From Syntrophomonadaceae bacterium (lineage in GTDB: Bacteria; Bacillota; Dethiobacteria; DTU022): DNA of 61,440 nucleotides. A program made the translations under genes and the position numbers. Location: NCBI GenBank assembly GCA_007119965.1, contig SKOR01000020.1, positions 1 to 61,440 of the forward strand, read 5' to 3'. The notes under the pieces are model-generated. The model saw nothing but the letters and a program-made list of their open reading frames with translations. It ran no database searches and had not been told where the DNA came from. Below are positions 5,176 to 12,447 of this stretch, one piece after another (the stretch's first letter is position 1; each line of letters starts with the position of its first letter).

Positions 5176-5330
5176 ACCTTTGCAGCATGCTTACTCCGGC
5201 CTCAGAAGAGGAGGCTGTTTTCCTTTTTGGTTTTAACAGGCTATAATATAAATGTAAACTAACAGTGCAAAAGGCGTTAATATGCTATTATAGAAAATGT
5301 CAAAGTCAATAGCTGTTGGAGGGAAAAGGC

Positions 5331-8081
5331 TTGCCACGTAAATCATCATCTAAACAAAAGAAACTTATGGAAGCGGATTCGTCTTCCAAAAAGAAAACGG
5401 CTAAGAGTCGGAAAAAAATGCAGTCTGACAATAATAAGCCTTTTAACGAGCGTGCCGAACTGATCGTCATGATGGTGATGCTGGTTGCCGCAGCGCTTAT
5501 AATATTGATCGGGCCTTTCTATCGCGGTCTCTTTTTTCCCAGGGAACTGTTGCAGGCCCAGGTATTTGCATTTGGGCTGCTGATTTTATGGGGCTTTTTC
5601 CGCATTCTCAAAAAAGACAGCCGCCTGGTTGAAACTCCCCTTGATATCTGCCTTGTGGTTTTGCTGGCGGCCTATTTTGTGTCTTTTTTTGTTGCAGTTC
5701 ATAAGCGCGATGCTCTCGAAGAACTGCTTAAAATTGGTTCTTACCTCGTCTTTTACCTGGTTGCCCTTGATATTTGCCGCCACTGGCGGTTTCCCGTGCA
5801 GCACCCCATTTTCCGGCAGGACAGTGCAGAGGACCGTAAAAATATTCCGCCGGGCTTAAACCTTGTACTGCACCTGCTTTTTGCAGTGGCTGCAGTAATT
5901 ACTGTCGCCAGCCTCGGCGTGGCCGCAGGACACTGGGACTTTGTCGGGGCCTATGCATCGAACCGGATAGCATCCCCGATGGGCTACGCTAATACCGCAG
6001 CAGCTTACCTGATGGCAGCATATTTTCTGGGTTTGGGCCTTGCACCCCTCGCTGCCGTACGGCACAGGATGTTCTATCTTGCTCCGGCTGCCTTAATGTT
6101 GATGACAGTAATCCTCACCTTTTCCCGCGGTGCCTGGCTGCTGCTGCTGCCGCTGGCGGCGCTGCTGGTTATTGCTGCAGCTCCCGGTCAAAGGTTGCGT
6201 TCAATGTTGTACCTGGCAGTAACCGGCCTGAGTGCGGTGCCGGCAGCCCTGTTATCCGATCCTGTTTTTCGATCGGATACACCTGCCCAGGCCTGGTTAA
6301 TTATAATCCCATCAGTTTTATTTGCCTTATTTTTGGGCTATCTAGTTGAACTGTATTTTGTTCAGAGCCGTAAACTGCGCATTGCCATTGCCGCCTCAAG
6401 TCTTGCCGTGGTGGCTGTTGTAATTATAGGTACCGTGATAGTTCCGGCCGTGGGCCCCATGCAGCTTGAGCAGCCGGTTGATGAGCCGGCCCAAACCCGT
6501 TCTTTTAAACAGGTTGTTGAGAATATAGAACCCGGTGAGACATACCAGCTGTCATTGGAGGTCGATGCCCGGAAAGATCTTTTTGCCGGAGCTGAGCAGC
6601 CAGAGTATGCCTGGAGAATCAGGGTCCTCGGCGGCCTGCCCGGGTACAGGGATGAAGAACTGTTAAACTATCGCGGAACAGCTACGGATGGCTGGCAGGA
6701 TCAGGTATTTACCTTTCAGACAGGAGTAGAGACAACCCGCCTTGATATAAGGATAGAGAATCGCTACCCCGGCACATCGGTCGCTGCGCGTTCGGTTACC
6801 CTCAGCGGCCCCGATCAGGATCACCGGCTGCGCTTTACTCTCAGCCGCATTTTGCCGGATCGTTACTATGACAGGATTTATTCTTATTCCAGGGATCGCA
6901 ACCTTGACCGCCGCCTGGAACTGTTTGAAGATGCCGTTAAAGTAATCAGGGATTACCCGGTGCTCGGGGCAGGGGGAGGTGCCTGGGCTGCCATATACAG
7001 GGCTTACCAGGATCAACCATACGATTCACGTGAAGTGCATAACCATTACCTGCAGGTCTGGATAGAAGCAGGTTTGTTCGGTTTCCTGGCCTTTATTGGG
7101 ATTTGGGTTAGTTTTGCGGCTGCTTTTTTCCGCAACTGCCTTAAAGAAAGAGCTTCCCCGGTAAAATGGCAGTACTGGACAGCGACATTCCTGCCGGTTG
7201 CGGCACTGGGCGCGCACAGTGCAATAGACTGGAACTTTTCTATGGCTGCGGTAGGGATGTTTCTATTCGTATTACTCGGGGCCGGACGCAGCCTGGACGA
7301 AGTGTCGTGGTTTAAAAGGTTGAAAATCCAAAAGAATAAACCCACAGCGGGAACCATTATAGGCGTCGTTGCTTTAATAGCGGGGTTATCCCTGTCAATT
7401 TATTCATTTATGCTTTTAAGAGGCCTTGATGCGACCTGGGATTCACAAAGGCTTATGGAGCGGGGCAACCTGAAGCAGGCTGTCACAGAAATGGATAGGG
7501 CAATCAGGCTTGACCCCCTGCGTGCAGAGAATTACCACAATCTATCAGTCTTGACGGAAGAGCAGGGGTTAAGAATACAGTCCCAGTCAGACGCAGGATA
7601 TGTGTTTGCCATGGCAGAGCGGGCTTATGAAATGGAACCATATAACCCCACCTACTTTTTGCGTTACGGCGATCTGCTGATGAGCTATGTTGATATAGAT
7701 CAGGGGTTGGCGCAGATCGACAGGCTGATTGAAATGCGCCCGCATTTTGAAAGCAGCTATCTTCGCCCTGCTTTTTCAAGGTTAAATGTTGTTGAATACC
7801 TAGTTGATACCGGCAATCAGGCTGCAGCAGAACATTATGCCGGGGAAATATTTGAGCTTGAGGAGAAAATGCAAAATGAGCAGGGTGACAGCACGCCCAT
7901 GGCATATATCGTTGGCAGGGCCCATTACTTACTGGGCCGCCATTCTGAAGCTAAGAGATATTATGAAAAAGTAGAAGAAGACGATCAATTCTATGATAAT
8001 GCCCGGCAAAACCTTGCAGAACTGCGTGGAGAGGAAGATCGTGATGAAGAGACCGAGGGGCCTGATCAGGAAGACCAGTAA
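5331..8081 (+). CDS. O-antigen ligase/polymerase-like membrane protein with TPR tail
   Basis: 916 residues. A basic Lys/Ser-rich cytoplasmic start (about 1-45) is followed by a dozen predicted transmembrane helices. The Wzy_C-type motif HNHYLQVWIEAGLFGF lies in a late loop, the site expected to handle lipid-linked glycans in the O-antigen ligase family. A soluble insertion of about 130 residues near residues 385-515 (starting around the QLSLEVDARKD segment) looks like a beta-sandwich carbohydrate-binding region. The last 200 residues are TPR-like. Start TTG 5331 lies 7 bases after GGAGGG. Probably attaches or polymerises surface polysaccharide. It overlaps the next gene by 38 bases. Confidence 0.85.
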   Translation: MPRKSSSKQKKLMEADSSSKKKTAKSRKKMQSDNNKPFNERAELIVMMVMLVAAALIILIGPFYRGLFFPRELLQAQVFAFGLLILWGFFRILKKDSRLVETPLDICLVVLLAAYFVSFFVAVHKRDALEELLKIGSYLVFYLVALDICRHWRFPVQHPIFRQDSAEDRKNIPPGLNLVLHLLFAVAAVITVASLGVAAGHWDFVGAYASNRIASPMGYANTAAAYLMAAYFLGLGLAPLAAVRHRMFYLAPAALMLMTVILTFSRGAWLLLLPLAALLVIAAAPGQRLRSMLYLAVTGLSAVPAALLSDPVFRSDTPAQAWLIIIPSVLFALFLGYLVELYFVQSRKLRIAIAASSLAVVAVVIIGTVIVPAVGPMQLEQPVDEPAQTRSFKQVVENIEPGETYQLSLEVDARKDLFAGAEQPEYAWRIRVLGGLPGYRDEELLNYRGTATDGWQDQVFTFQTGVETTRLDIRIENRYPGTSVAARSVTLSGPDQDHRLRFTLSRILPDRYYDRIYSYSRDRNLDRRLELFEDAVKVIRDYPVLGAGGGAWAAIYRAYQDQPYDSREVHNHYLQVWIEAGLFGFLAFIGIWVSFAAAFFRNCLKERASPVKWQYWTATFLPVAALGAHSAIDWNFSMAAVGMFLFVLLGAGRSLDEVSWFKRLKIQKNKPTAGTIIGVVALIAGLSLSIYSFMLLRGLDATWDSQRLMERGNLKQAVTEMDRAIRLDPLRAENYHNLSVLTEEQGLRIQSQSDAGYVFAMAERAYEMEPYNPTYFLRYGDLLMSYVDIDQGLAQIDRLIEMRPHFESSYLRPAFSRLNVVEYLVDTGNQAAAEHYAGEIFELEEKMQNEQGDSTPMAYIVGRAHYLLGRHSEAKRYYEKVEEDDQFYDNARQNLAELRGEEDRDEETEGPDQEDQ

Positions 8082-8949
8082 GGCCGGTTACAGCAATCGG
8101 AGAATAATTACCCACCCGGCCTTTAAACCGATCGGCGGCCTGGCCGGACAAGCAGTGCTGGGTGGGTTTCTTTTGCTGGCCATGTTTACCGCTTTAACCG
8201 GCTGTGCAGAAGAGACGTTAAAAAGCGCTGAGCCTGAAGCACAGGAAGCGTCTACTAAAAACGGAGAGGAGGAATCCTTTATGGAAAATGAAAAAGATAT
8301 TGCCGACCTTGCCATGCCCCCTCTAGATCAGGATGTTCCCGGGTATCTTGAAACGGCAACCCTGGCCATGGGCTGATTTTGGGGCCCAGATGCCCGGTTC
8401 GGGCAAATGAAAGGGGTTTACCGGACCCGTGTCGGTTACACGGGAGGCAGTCTTGAAAATCCGACCTACCGTAATTTAGGGGACCACACCGAGGCGTTTC
8501 AAGTTGATTTTGATCCTGCGGTGCTCTCCTATAAAGAGATCCTCGAGATATTCTGGAACAACCACAATCCCACAGGAAAAGCCTGGTCCAGGCAGTATAT
8601 GGCGGCAGTCTATTTCCATAACAATGAGCAGGAAAGCGCTGCCCTGGAGAGCAAAGCCGCCCTTGAAGAAAAATTGGGAGCAGCGGTTACTACCGAAATT
8701 GTCTCCCTGGAAATATTTTATCCTGCCGAAGATTATCACCAGAAATATTACCTGCAGGCCCGGCCGGAATTAGCGGGTGAACTGCTGGATTATTACCCGG
8801 ATTTTAGCGACTTTGTCGACTCAACAACAGCCGCCAGGCTTAACGGTTATATCGGCGGTTACGGCGACCCGGAATCGCTTAACGAAGAAGTGGACAGCTT
8901 CGGTCTTTCGCCAACCGGCCGGGAAATATTGAAGGGGTTCGTTTATTAA
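8044..8949 (+). CDS. msrA: Selenocysteine-containing MsrA lipoprotein (UGA at Sec111)
   Basis: Peptide methionine-S-sulfoxide reductase. Normally the nucleophile is Cys in GCFWG. Here codons 110-114 read Gly, TGA, Phe, Trp, Gly, so the UGA at 8374-8376 occupies exactly the catalytic position and the frame continues through a complete MsrA domain (GVYRTRVGYTGG, then WSRQYMAAVYFHN, EDYHQKYY) to TAA 8949. A hairpin fitting the bacterial SECIS model follows the UGA. No Cys occurs after the Sec, so there is no resolving cysteine. The N-terminus has a signal peptide ending in lipobox LTGC (about residue 60), implying an extracytoplasmic lipoprotein. Start ATG 8044 (or GTG 8041) follows GGAGAGG and overlaps the upstream gene. 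If Sec insertion failed, the product would be an inactive 110-residue stub. Confidence 0.9.
8374..8405 (+). promoter_or_regulatory. UGA-Sec codon with bacterial SECIS-like hairpin
   Basis: After UGA 8374-8376 a stem TGCCCG/CGGGCA (8391-8396 with 8400-8405) closes a GTT loop. The spacing from UGA to the loop is 20 bases and the first loop base is G. Both fit the published bacterial SECIS consensus (loop 16-37 bases from UGA, G among the first two loop bases, stem of at least 4 bp). This element would recruit SelB. Confidence 0.8.
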
Positions 8950-9281: not shown

Positions 9282-9815
9282 TTAATTGATTGATTCTTTC
9301 TTATCGTGTGTAAAGGAGCTATCAGAATCTGTTCCCAGCTCCCACCACTGTTTTTCTTCATCTTCATCGTCGTCTTCAGCCGCTTTTTCCCTGGCTTCGC
9401 GCGCTTCTATTTCTTTTCTTCGCTGTTCGATAAGCCATTCCATTGTGCCCGGCCTGACTTCATTATTGTCTGCGGCAGGCTCTTCCGGTTCCGTCGTGAC
9501 CGTTTCACCTGAAGGTTGTGACGCTGCAGCTTCGCCGGATGGTTCGGCAGTATCCGACGGGTCCTGTGCAGTAATCTGATCTTCTGAATCGCCCCCGTCA
9601 TTTACATCCTGCTGGGGGAGATCCCGGTCTTCCTCTCGATCGGGGTCTTCCAGGCTGCGGTGAGATAAAGCCAGCCACGCCGGCATTTCTTCTTCAGGAC
9701 CGGCGCTATCCTGTTCCAGCTCGTTCCCGCGGGAAATAAGCAGCCCACAGCCGGTCACTTGTAAAGCAAACAGAGTTATCAGGGCAGATATAAATAATGT
9801 TCTGAGCAAACCCAT
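9282..9815 (-). CDS. Acidic lipoprotein of unknown function
   Basis: 177 residues. Signal peptide with lipobox VTGC (Cys about residue 23). The mature part is low-complexity and highly acidic (Glu, Asp, Ser, Pro, Gln), with a short more structured helix near MEWLIEQRRKEIEAREAREK and a tail of alternating Asp and Glu. No enzyme motif. ATG 9815 follows a good AGGGGG site. The acidic composition matches the linkers of other exported proteins here, suggesting adaptation of the secreted proteome to high salt or pH (inference). Confidence 0.75.
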   Translation of the reverse strand: MGLLRTLFISALITLFALQVTGCGLLISRGNELEQDSAGPEEEMPAWLALSHRSLEDPDREEDRDLPQQDVNDGGDSEDQITAQDPSDTAEPSGEAAASQPSGETVTTEPEEPAADNNEVRPGTMEWLIEQRRKEIEAREAREKAAEDDDEDEEKQWWELGTDSDSSFTHDKKESIN

Positions 9816-9964: not shown

Positions 9965-12370
9965 TTACTGTCCCGGAAGAGAATCGATTAACCCCAGGGT
10001 ATATCGCATCAACAGGGAGATGTCACGCACATCGACTACCCCGTCGCCATTTACATCGGCATTGTGTACCTGTTCGGCTGTCATTACAGAAAGCCCCAGC
10101 GTGTGGCGTACTACAATAACTATATCGGCAACGGTCACTTCCGCGTCTCCTGTCACATCCCCGGGTATAATCCTTTCAAAGTGTGCTGTTGCTGTTCTAT
10201 TACCGGTCATTTTAATGGTTGTGCCCGGCTCATAAAATTCCAGGTCATTAACGACCCATTTGCTAAAACGCCAGCCGTCAGCCGGTTTTGCCAGGATAGA
10301 AATTTTCTGGTCTTCTTCATATTGATGGGAACCTGGCTCCGGCTCCGTAGTGCCTGCCCCCCGGACACTGATAATTATGCTGTGCTCAACCTTAAGAGGT
10401 GTGCCGGGTGAAGCGGGCGCAGCCGGCTCAGGGGCCCGGGGAGGCGAAGGCGCCGGCCCGGGATTCGGCTCAGAATTATCATTAGAACCGGGCTCTTTTT
10501 CGTCCCGGTCTTCGCTTTCCTGACCTTCGTCACCTTTATCCTGATCATCTGATTCTTCTGCGGCATCCTCTTCAGGCTCCTGCCCCGGGTCCGGAGTATT
10601 TATTTCCCCGAAAACTGCAGTTGCTGTGATGTCCTGGTCTACGATTATTATCTCGGCTGCTGCTTCGGAAACATTTTCATTTATAATCCACCCGTCAAAC
10701 TGCCAACCCTCAGCAGGTCTTGCTTCAAGCAGTACTTCAGTTCCCTTTTCGTAACTGTGATAACCTGCACCCGGGTCGGTGATGCCTTCCCCTTCAACCA
10801 GAATCGTTAATGAATACAGTTCCGGCTCTGGTACAGCCGGCGTATGCGGGTCAAGCAGCCAGTTCAAAGCAATACTGCCCGAAGAAGATCCCCATCCATC
10901 GACAGCGATGTTGTAAGCGGTCCCTTCCTGTGCTTCAAAATATACCCTGCTCTGGCTTGTTCCACCGTAATCATCATTGGAGGCGACCGAGGTCAGGTCA
11001 TTAACTGCCGAACCGGTATAAACAGCCAGGATAGTGTCAAAATTACTCTCAAAGGTATCGATTTCAACACTGCCGGATGCAGGCGCCACCCATTCCCACC
11101 AGACGGATCGGCCGCCATTCTTCCCGTCATGCTTTGGTTCACCGGTTTCTTTCGATGCGTTTACATTGGTGCCCGTTGTATATCCCTGGCTGCCGGTGAT
11201 TGTAATGCGGTCGGCAAAGTGGTTGTTTTCCGGGACAGGTCCTTCAGGCTCATCCGGTTCCCCGGGATCGGCAGGTTCAGTAGTGCCGCTATTGCCGTAA
11301 ATATATTTGATCCCGGCGACGTCAACAGGGTGTAAATCTCTTTGTGTCCCTTTAATCTGGTAATACATAATTGAACCATATTCCGGCGAATGGTCGAGGC
11401 CAAGCCAGTGGCCGAATTCATGGAGGGCAACGGTTTGGACATCGTGCCCGTCCCAGCCGGAAGTAGACCAACCAAAGCGGGTATTAAAAACCATATCGGC
11501 CTCCAGGATTCTATCTCCCGAAAACCACAGGGTAGCAACGGCCAGGACATAGTTAGTTTCCAGGTCATGCCACATTATTTCATTTATTCCGTTAAATGAT
11601 GCTTTACCGCTGCGGGTGTGTGTGCCGCTGTAGTTGAAGGCAAAGCCTGCTCCGGCATCGCTCCAGGTATTTGCAGCTGCCTGGATATGGTTTGATCTGT
11701 CTGCAGAGGTATTTACATAATAAGGCACGTTTGGCGGTGATCCGCTCCAGCGGATGCCAAGATATACGAACCCTGTATCGTCCCCGGAGTCAGGTTGATC
11801 CCACCAGTTGGAATCAATGGGTAACTCTATGCTGTCTTCTCCATATGTGCCGGGGTCTTCCCCGTAAGTATTTATCGCTTTTTCCAGTTCACTGAGTGCA
11901 ATTCCGTTGACCCTGTCATTTGATATTTCCAGTTTGCCCTGGAATTGCCCGGTTAGCCTGTAAAAAATCGGCTGAATCTGCCTGCGAGGCAGGTTTTGAC
12001 GGGTCTGCTCGTCCAGGAAAAAGATTGCTTTTTCGCCCGGCTTAAATGCAGGAGTATCAGAGACAAGTTGGGTTATGCCGTCTGCTTCACCGCCGGGAAC
12101 AACGATAGTAACAGTGCTCTGCTGCTTTTCGTTTTTAAGTTCACCTTCAACCGAAACGATAATTTTTGTATAAATATTTTCCCGGGTCTCATCCCAGCTG
12201 CTGGAAGTGCTTTCAACTGTGCCGATAACTATGGAGTCAGCTTTAGATGACAGTTCTTCCAGGCTCAATTCTATCATTAAGGCTTCGGCTTTATCAGCTG
12301 AACCAAACATGATGAAGAGTGATAACAGGGCGATAGCAAATAGTTTAAGCAGGTTAGATGATTTTCTCAT
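9965..12370 (-). CDS. Secreted matrixin-type metalloprotease with bacterial repeats and dockerin
   Basis: 801 residues. Signal peptide at 1-30 (ends ADKAEA). Catalytic zinc motif HEFGHWLGLDHS with His317, His321, His327 and a following Met-turn (SIMYY), typical of M10 metzincins. A beta-sandwich (about 395-510) resembles pre-peptidase C-terminal domains. Two bacterial-repeat modules of the 'GWQFDGWIIN / GWRFSKWVVN' type flank a long acidic Pro/Glu linker. The last 60 residues are a type I dockerin-like pair of calcium loops (GDVTGDAEVTVAD, NADVNGDGVVDVRD). ATG 12370 follows AAGGAGGGG; an ORF extension upstream is not supported. Expression is predicted to be controlled by the c-di-GMP riboswitch upstream. 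Confidence 0.88.
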   Translation of the reverse strand: MRKSSNLLKLFAIALLSLFIMFGSADKAEALMIELSLEELSSKADSIVIGTVESTSSSWDETRENIYTKIIVSVEGELKNEKQQSTVTIVVPGGEADGITQLVSDTPAFKPGEKAIFFLDEQTRQNLPRRQIQPIFYRLTGQFQGKLEISNDRVNGIALSELEKAINTYGEDPGTYGEDSIELPIDSNWWDQPDSGDDTGFVYLGIRWSGSPPNVPYYVNTSADRSNHIQAAANTWSDAGAGFAFNYSGTHTRSGKASFNGINEIMWHDLETNYVLAVATLWFSGDRILEADMVFNTRFGWSTSGWDGHDVQTVALHEFGHWLGLDHSPEYGSIMYYQIKGTQRDLHPVDVAGIKYIYGNSGTTEPADPGEPDEPEGPVPENNHFADRITITGSQGYTTGTNVNASKETGEPKHDGKNGGRSVWWEWVAPASGSVEIDTFESNFDTILAVYTGSAVNDLTSVASNDDYGGTSQSRVYFEAQEGTAYNIAVDGWGSSSGSIALNWLLDPHTPAVPEPELYSLTILVEGEGITDPGAGYHSYEKGTEVLLEARPAEGWQFDGWIINENVSEAAAEIIIVDQDITATAVFGEINTPDPGQEPEEDAAEESDDQDKGDEGQESEDRDEKEPGSNDNSEPNPGPAPSPPRAPEPAAPASPGTPLKVEHSIIISVRGAGTTEPEPGSHQYEEDQKISILAKPADGWRFSKWVVNDLEFYEPGTTIKMTGNRTATAHFERIIPGDVTGDAEVTVADIVIVVRHTLGLSVMTAEQVHNADVNGDGVVDVRDISLLMRYTLGLIDSLPGQ

Positions 12371-12447
12371 TATGCCCCTCCTTGTTTGCCAGGCAGCCTG
12401 CAATACAAAAAAGCCTGAGCGCGGTTGTTATAACTAAAAGTAAAGAG

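Follow-up and report, generated by a model that had tools for sequence, protein, structure and literature searches.

The MsrA of Clostridium (Alkaliphilus) oremlandii OhILAs is a native selenoprotein that contains selenocysteine (Sec) and no other Cys, and its reductant is glutaredoxin rather than thioredoxin (PMC4479559); the glutaredoxin partner is also reported as a selenoprotein in the cited literature. A 2026 review of the prokaryotic selenoproteome includes MsrA with the motif GUFWG, and signal peptides, the periplasm and lipoproteins go unmentioned in it (PMC13188914). In Neisseria, PilB (MsrAB) is made as a periplasmic three-domain form and as a cytosolic form, PilBAB, which arises by internal initiation at Met195 (PMC6210582). 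That result came from expression in E. coli (PMC6210582), and a later study by another group did not detect the short form in gonococcus (PMC6372556). SpMsrAB2 of S. pneumoniae works with the surface lipoproteins Etrx1 and Etrx2 (PMC3914529). Selenoprotein MsrA and exported methionine sulfoxide reductases (Msr) are already known, and a two-form msr gene using internal initiation has been reported in the case of PilB. Here we describe an msrA gene in a 61,440-nt stretch of DNA from a Syntrophomonadaceae bacterium (contig SKOR01000020.1 of assembly GCA_007119965.1; hereafter the window). We estimate a probability of about 75% that this one-Sec MsrA, which lacks a resolving Cys, is made in two forms, a surface lipoprotein and a cytosolic enzyme.

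Like the C. oremlandii MsrA, the window protein has its catalytic Sec within GUFWG and lacks a resolving Cys; a conserved Glu is also shared, Glu150 of the window protein aligning with Glu55 of the other. The C. oremlandii enzyme, however, is 209 amino acids long with its Sec at residue 16, which leaves no space for a signal peptide, whereas the window protein carries a lipoprotein signal followed by a linker that contains an internal start. PilB is comparable in that a single gene gives an exported and a cytosolic Msr through an internal AUG, but it is a Cys enzyme and an MsrA-MsrB fusion, whose own thioredoxin-like domain is removed by the internal start. We regard PilB as a precedent in mechanism only; the protein is not the same, and the finding is contested for gonococcus. 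A PilB-type fusion was rejected for the window gene, which has no fused thioredoxin-like/MsrA/MsrB set and scores 65 bits against NF010625 (cut-off 522). The pneumococcal enzyme is similar in being a surface-side Msr partnered by membrane-anchored thioredoxin-family lipoproteins. Unlike the window MsrA, it is a Cys-based MsrAB fusion and is not known to contain Sec.

The open reading frame lies on the forward strand (8044-8949), from ATG 8044 to TAA 8947-8949, and encodes 301 amino acids if its sole internal in-frame stop, TGA 8374-8376, is read as Sec. The outer start follows a Shine-Dalgarno (SD) sequence, GGAGAGGA (8028-8035), and opens a predicted lipoprotein signal peptide of 53 amino acids (8044-8202) with a long n-region and LTG before the Cys. 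The lipobox LTGC spans 8194-8205, with the predicted lipidation site at Cys codon 8203-8205, and an acidic linker (8206-8280) separates it from an internal in-frame ATG (8281-8283). This ATG lies 31 codons upstream of Sec and is the predicted start of a 222-amino-acid cytosolic form. It is preceded by a conserved SD sequence, GGAGAGGAGG (8263-8272), whose AGGAGG core (8267-8272) is spaced 8 nt from the ATG. Pairing with the 16S tail, for which the anti-SD sequence CACCUCCUUA was assumed in every lineage, was -12.0 kcal/mol for the internal SD versus -7.0 kcal/mol for the outer one.

To place these features in the family we used 80 related loci taken from genomes; the catalytic motif could be located in 76, making 77 sequences with the window. 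The catalytic codon is TGA in 66 of the 77 (65 relatives and the window) and TGC or TGT in the other 11. Export-type N-termini, in which a linker follows a hydrophobic segment, are found in 52 of these 66 UGA sequences, a share that may be inflated, as the sequences were gathered through their similarity to an export-type query. Among the 52 export-type linkers, 33 contain an in-frame ATG, GTG or TTG with an SD of -8 kcal/mol or stronger, compared with 14.5 expected when the linkers are recoded with synonymous codons drawn from the gene itself and 6.1 when codon order is shuffled. After similar linkers were removed, 26 of 45 were observed versus 9.6 expected by synonymous recoding (z 6.9), and the order test gave a z of 12. 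With 46 further lipoproteins, taken from 2 Mb of sequence, as controls, an ATG with an SD of -7 kcal/mol or stronger was found in 33 of the 52 export-type sequences but in only one control (p 1.4e-11), which is another lipoprotein of the window. Met itself is present in 42 of 49 Sec-MsrA linkers and in 9 of the 46 controls.

The spacing from SD to start peaks at 8 nt (14 of the 33), and the internal site is mostly 24-36 codons upstream of Sec. The 33 start codons comprise 27 ATG, 5 GTG and 1 TTG, with four of the GTG cases from one close group. Since some lineages keep the start as GTG or TTG, it is the start function and not Met that appears to be conserved. The export-type linkers are strongly divergent around this recurring start. 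Several signal-less relatives, L037, L043, L038 and those of Desulforamulus among them, begin near the internal-start position with a strong SD (-12 in Desulforamulus). In a cultured relative, Anoxynatronum buryatiense (L102), the ATG of the linker has an SD of -10.1.

A parallel was found in MsrB. The MsrB of the same genome (L154, G000:C80:38236-38580, minus strand) is of the lipoprotein type, with LLLLISGC. Between its signal and its domain there is an internal ATG with a strong SD (-12.1) in front of it. In a by-eye count of export-type MsrB copies, covering L154 itself and relatives from genomes that carry Sec-MsrA, 11 of 14 had an internal start with an SD of -7 or stronger. It is likely that in several phyla single genes supply Msr to both sides of the membrane, in the case of Sec-MsrA and here also of MsrB, through a conserved internal ribosome binding site and start.

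Several points weigh against two starts. Part of the internal-start signal is expected from composition, because an acidic linker favors SD-like codons. The SD is weaker than -7 kcal/mol in 13 of the 52 export-type sequences, so that about a quarter lack a convincing internal start, among them the same-clade relatives L024, L026 and L029. A weak hairpin (-6.4 kcal/mol) overlaps part of the internal SD. The loci that suggested the idea were also those on which it was tested, with thresholds fixed after a first look, and MsrB is a semi-independent replicate without a null of its own. A Pfam scan of 95 neighboring proteins of the relatives revealed no conserved redox partner adjoining Sec-MsrA, as every family found was present at most three times (SelR twice). 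The whole case for two starts is sequence evidence, and parts of the pattern could also stem from a ribosome pause or an internal promoter.

A rival possibility is that only ATG 8044 is used and the gene yields a single, exported selenoprotein. The AGGAGG-ATG would then be a by-product of the acidic linker, whose GGA, GAG and GAA codons suffice under synonymous recoding for the 14.5 sites of the 52, or an SD-like pause that slows the ribosome during membrane engagement of the signal peptide; the missing strong site in a quarter of the export-type sequences speaks for this reading. We consider this explanation unlikely, since the SD stands at optimal spacing from a start codon that is in frame, start codons are far more common here than in the linkers of other lipoproteins, and GTG or TTG stands in for ATG in some lineages. 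Pausing, moreover, requires no start codon.

The window sequence LLLAMFTALTGC has a basic n-region, a hydrophobic core and the lipobox Cys; its N-terminus consists of a long basic region, then AVLGGFLLLAMFTALTGC, then the acidic linker. A recognizable lipobox is present in 38 of the 52 export-type UGA sequences. One could propose that the internal start alone is used and that what precedes it is an untranslated leader, open by chance, given that the internal SD is the stronger and the n-region ahead of the hydrophobic core is unusually long. Such a leader is very improbable, since the core and the lipobox are in frame in those 38 sequences from many phyla, each free of stops up to the enzyme. 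Export of the window MsrA as a lipoprotein is thus supported, as the earlier note on this DNA had held. Its further remark that an exported Sec enzyme is unusual does not hold for this family, as export appears to be the usual state among the sampled Sec-MsrA and is not surprising there. That reading was also incomplete in that the conserved internal start predicts a cytosolic form from the same gene. Sec outside the cytoplasm is found in other bacterial enzymes, namely formate dehydrogenases N and O and periplasmic [NiFeSe] hydrogenase, which are large respiratory metalloenzymes unlike the thiol-repair enzyme MsrA. In three Deltaproteobacteria (L047, L048 and L049), the sequence upstream of Sec-MsrA contains RRSFMK, which resembles a twin-arginine signal and suggests a different export route.

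The window protein is supported as a selenoprotein MsrA of the known one-Sec type by the conserved UGA column, a covarying selenocysteine insertion sequence (SECIS) and the presence of selA, selB, selD and tRNA-Sec. On the same grounds, insertion of Sec at UGA 8374 is nearly certain. The earlier note had proposed that the frames on either side of the UGA form one complete MsrA in which UGA replaces the catalytic Cys of GCFWG, and both proposals were borne out. The match to the catalytic domain PF01625 (PMSR; 8353-8760, residues 104-239 of the read-through protein) spans the UGA (Pfam, 1.2e-42), and TIGR00401 scores 131 bits (cut-off 108). The C-terminal domain PF20939 (MsrA_helical; 8821-8934, residues 260-297), which Pfam itself names 'Selenoprotein methionine sulfoxide reductase A, helical domain', scores 33.2 bits (cut-off 23.7); these two are the only Pfam domains in the protein. 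The closest solved structures (PDB 4lwj, 4lwk, 4lwl, 4lwm, 4u66 and 7c13, E ~1e-57) are entries named MsrA, and the UGA aligns without gaps to residue 16, the catalytic Cys, of the best of them. A plasmid search returned nothing beyond distant MsrA of <60% identity. The number of Cys residues after Sec is zero, as previously noted, a feature already known for the C. oremlandii MsrA (PMC4479559). Several Chloroflexota Sec-MsrA (L036, L044, L080, L089 and L092) have a short Cys-bearing tail (CPVP, CLVP or CPAL), and its Cys may be a resolving residue that is missing in the window protein.

The SECIS-like hairpin that had been pointed out after the UGA also withstood analysis. This apical hairpin, UGCCCG(GUU)CGGGCA (8391-8405), has a 6-bp stem (8391-8396/8400-8405) and a GTT loop (8397-8399) that begins 20 nt past the UGA, as it does in most relatives. 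Folding of the single sequence gave no extra stability over shuffles (z -0.06 and -0.66) and was uninformative, and therefore covariation was used instead. In an alignment of 63 distinct relatives, 93.9% of the stem cells are paired, and 63 cells with double changes were observed versus 21.6 by shuffle. The covariation score was 0.361 compared with 0.148 for shuffled alignments, none of 500 shuffles reached the observed value, and slid versions were far lower. Pairs 1 and 5 swap (G-C/A-U and G-C/U-A), while three C-G pairs are invariant in the 66 sequences. The pairing is tied to the amino acids encoded, with G-C in the Ala-Arg-Phe-Gly-Gln group and U-A in the Ser-Arg-Phe-Gly-Ser group. At the equivalent positions the Cys homologues are mostly unpaired. 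Thermoplasmata archaea (L079, L082, L086 and L097) have the Cys form, and the Cys forms as a group lack the SECIS stem there.

The source genome (2.34 Mb, 96.6% complete) contains the sel genes for which the earlier note had advised a search, just as the alignment of homologues it advised gave the TGA counts reported above. selA (596 bits) and selB (394 bits) adjoin each other on contig 91, with selD (356 bits) beside them, and a tRNA-Sec was found with 72.3 bits. selD has one in-frame TGA of its own (L018, G000:C91:64720-65649), so SelD itself is probably a selenoprotein. That the UGA of the window gene is a true stop in a pseudogene, or a misread TGC or TGT, has nothing in its favor except the stop. 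With TGA at the same column in 65 relatives, which excludes chance or sequencing error, an intact enzyme domain beyond it, a covarying SECIS and complete Sec machinery, this explanation is hardly credible.

We infer the use of both starts, and likewise the lipidated product, the insertion of Sec in vivo and the reductants. In the mechanism we propose, translation from ATG 8044 would give a preprolipoprotein that is exported and lipidated at Cys 8203-8205, and this form would act on proteins of the surface or envelope, repairing their methionine-S-sulfoxide. When translation begins at ATG 8281, under its own strong SD, the product would be a signal-less enzyme with the same catalytic domain that stays in the cytosol. 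For both forms, SelB and tRNA-Sec would insert Sec at UGA 8374 with the aid of the hairpin at 8391-8405. Because neither has a resolving Cys, the reduction of each would have to come from a glutaredoxin-like partner located on the same side of the membrane as the form it serves.

Candidates for these partners were found in the source genome. L152 (583-1821, minus strand) has a signal-like N-terminus, a CPTC glutaredoxin-like domain (G000:C42:9007-9210, minus strand) and a multi-pass membrane part, whose NPC and LPC motifs contain Cys; from family and topology, our guess is that it could be a reductant of the exported form. On the same basis, two small Cys glutaredoxins, L150 and L151, are guessed to be reductants of the cytosolic form. 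The genome also encodes a CcdA/DsbD-type protein (L153). A Sec-glutaredoxin partner as in C. oremlandii was rejected, as the two small glutaredoxins have CPWC and CPYC and no Sec, and thus differ from the selenoprotein partner of that MsrA.

The dual layout was found in Bacillota, Chloroflexota, Planctomycetota and Synergistota, and in records named Deltaproteobacteria, some of which are placed in Myxococcota. The tree demands many switches between layout states, so both gain and loss of the dual layout are likely; its bootstrap support is not settled. L031 was scored as signal-less in the tree, but its contig begins inside the gene and it is hence uninformative. In the open-access literature we found no description of an internal start that is conserved among the lipoprotein Sec-MsrA genes of different phyla and paralleled in MsrB, and no bacterial dual-start signal-peptide proteins; this silence is weak evidence of novelty, since the coverage was open-access only.

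Upstream in the window, an O-antigen-ligase-like (Wzy_C) TPR protein (5316-8081) overlaps the start of the Sec-MsrA gene by 38 bases at its 3' end, in another frame. On the other side, the gene is adjoined by a small acidic lipoprotein (9282-9815, minus strand) with a VTGC lipobox and no Pfam match. A large secreted-type protein (9965-12403, minus strand) has a matrixin metalloprotease domain, InlB-type repeats and a dockerin domain. In two relatives, heliorhodopsin genes adjoin the Sec-MsrA gene.

An exported enzyme with one Sec and no resolving Cys raises the question of what restores it to the reduced state outside the cell. If translation does begin at the internal site, the msrA gene would offer a simple and testable example of a single bacterial gene that serves two compartments, in which the start is kept by selection while the linker around it diverges. 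Taken across the family, this would amount to a widespread and conserved way of achieving dual localization through two starts, with a selenoprotein among its users.

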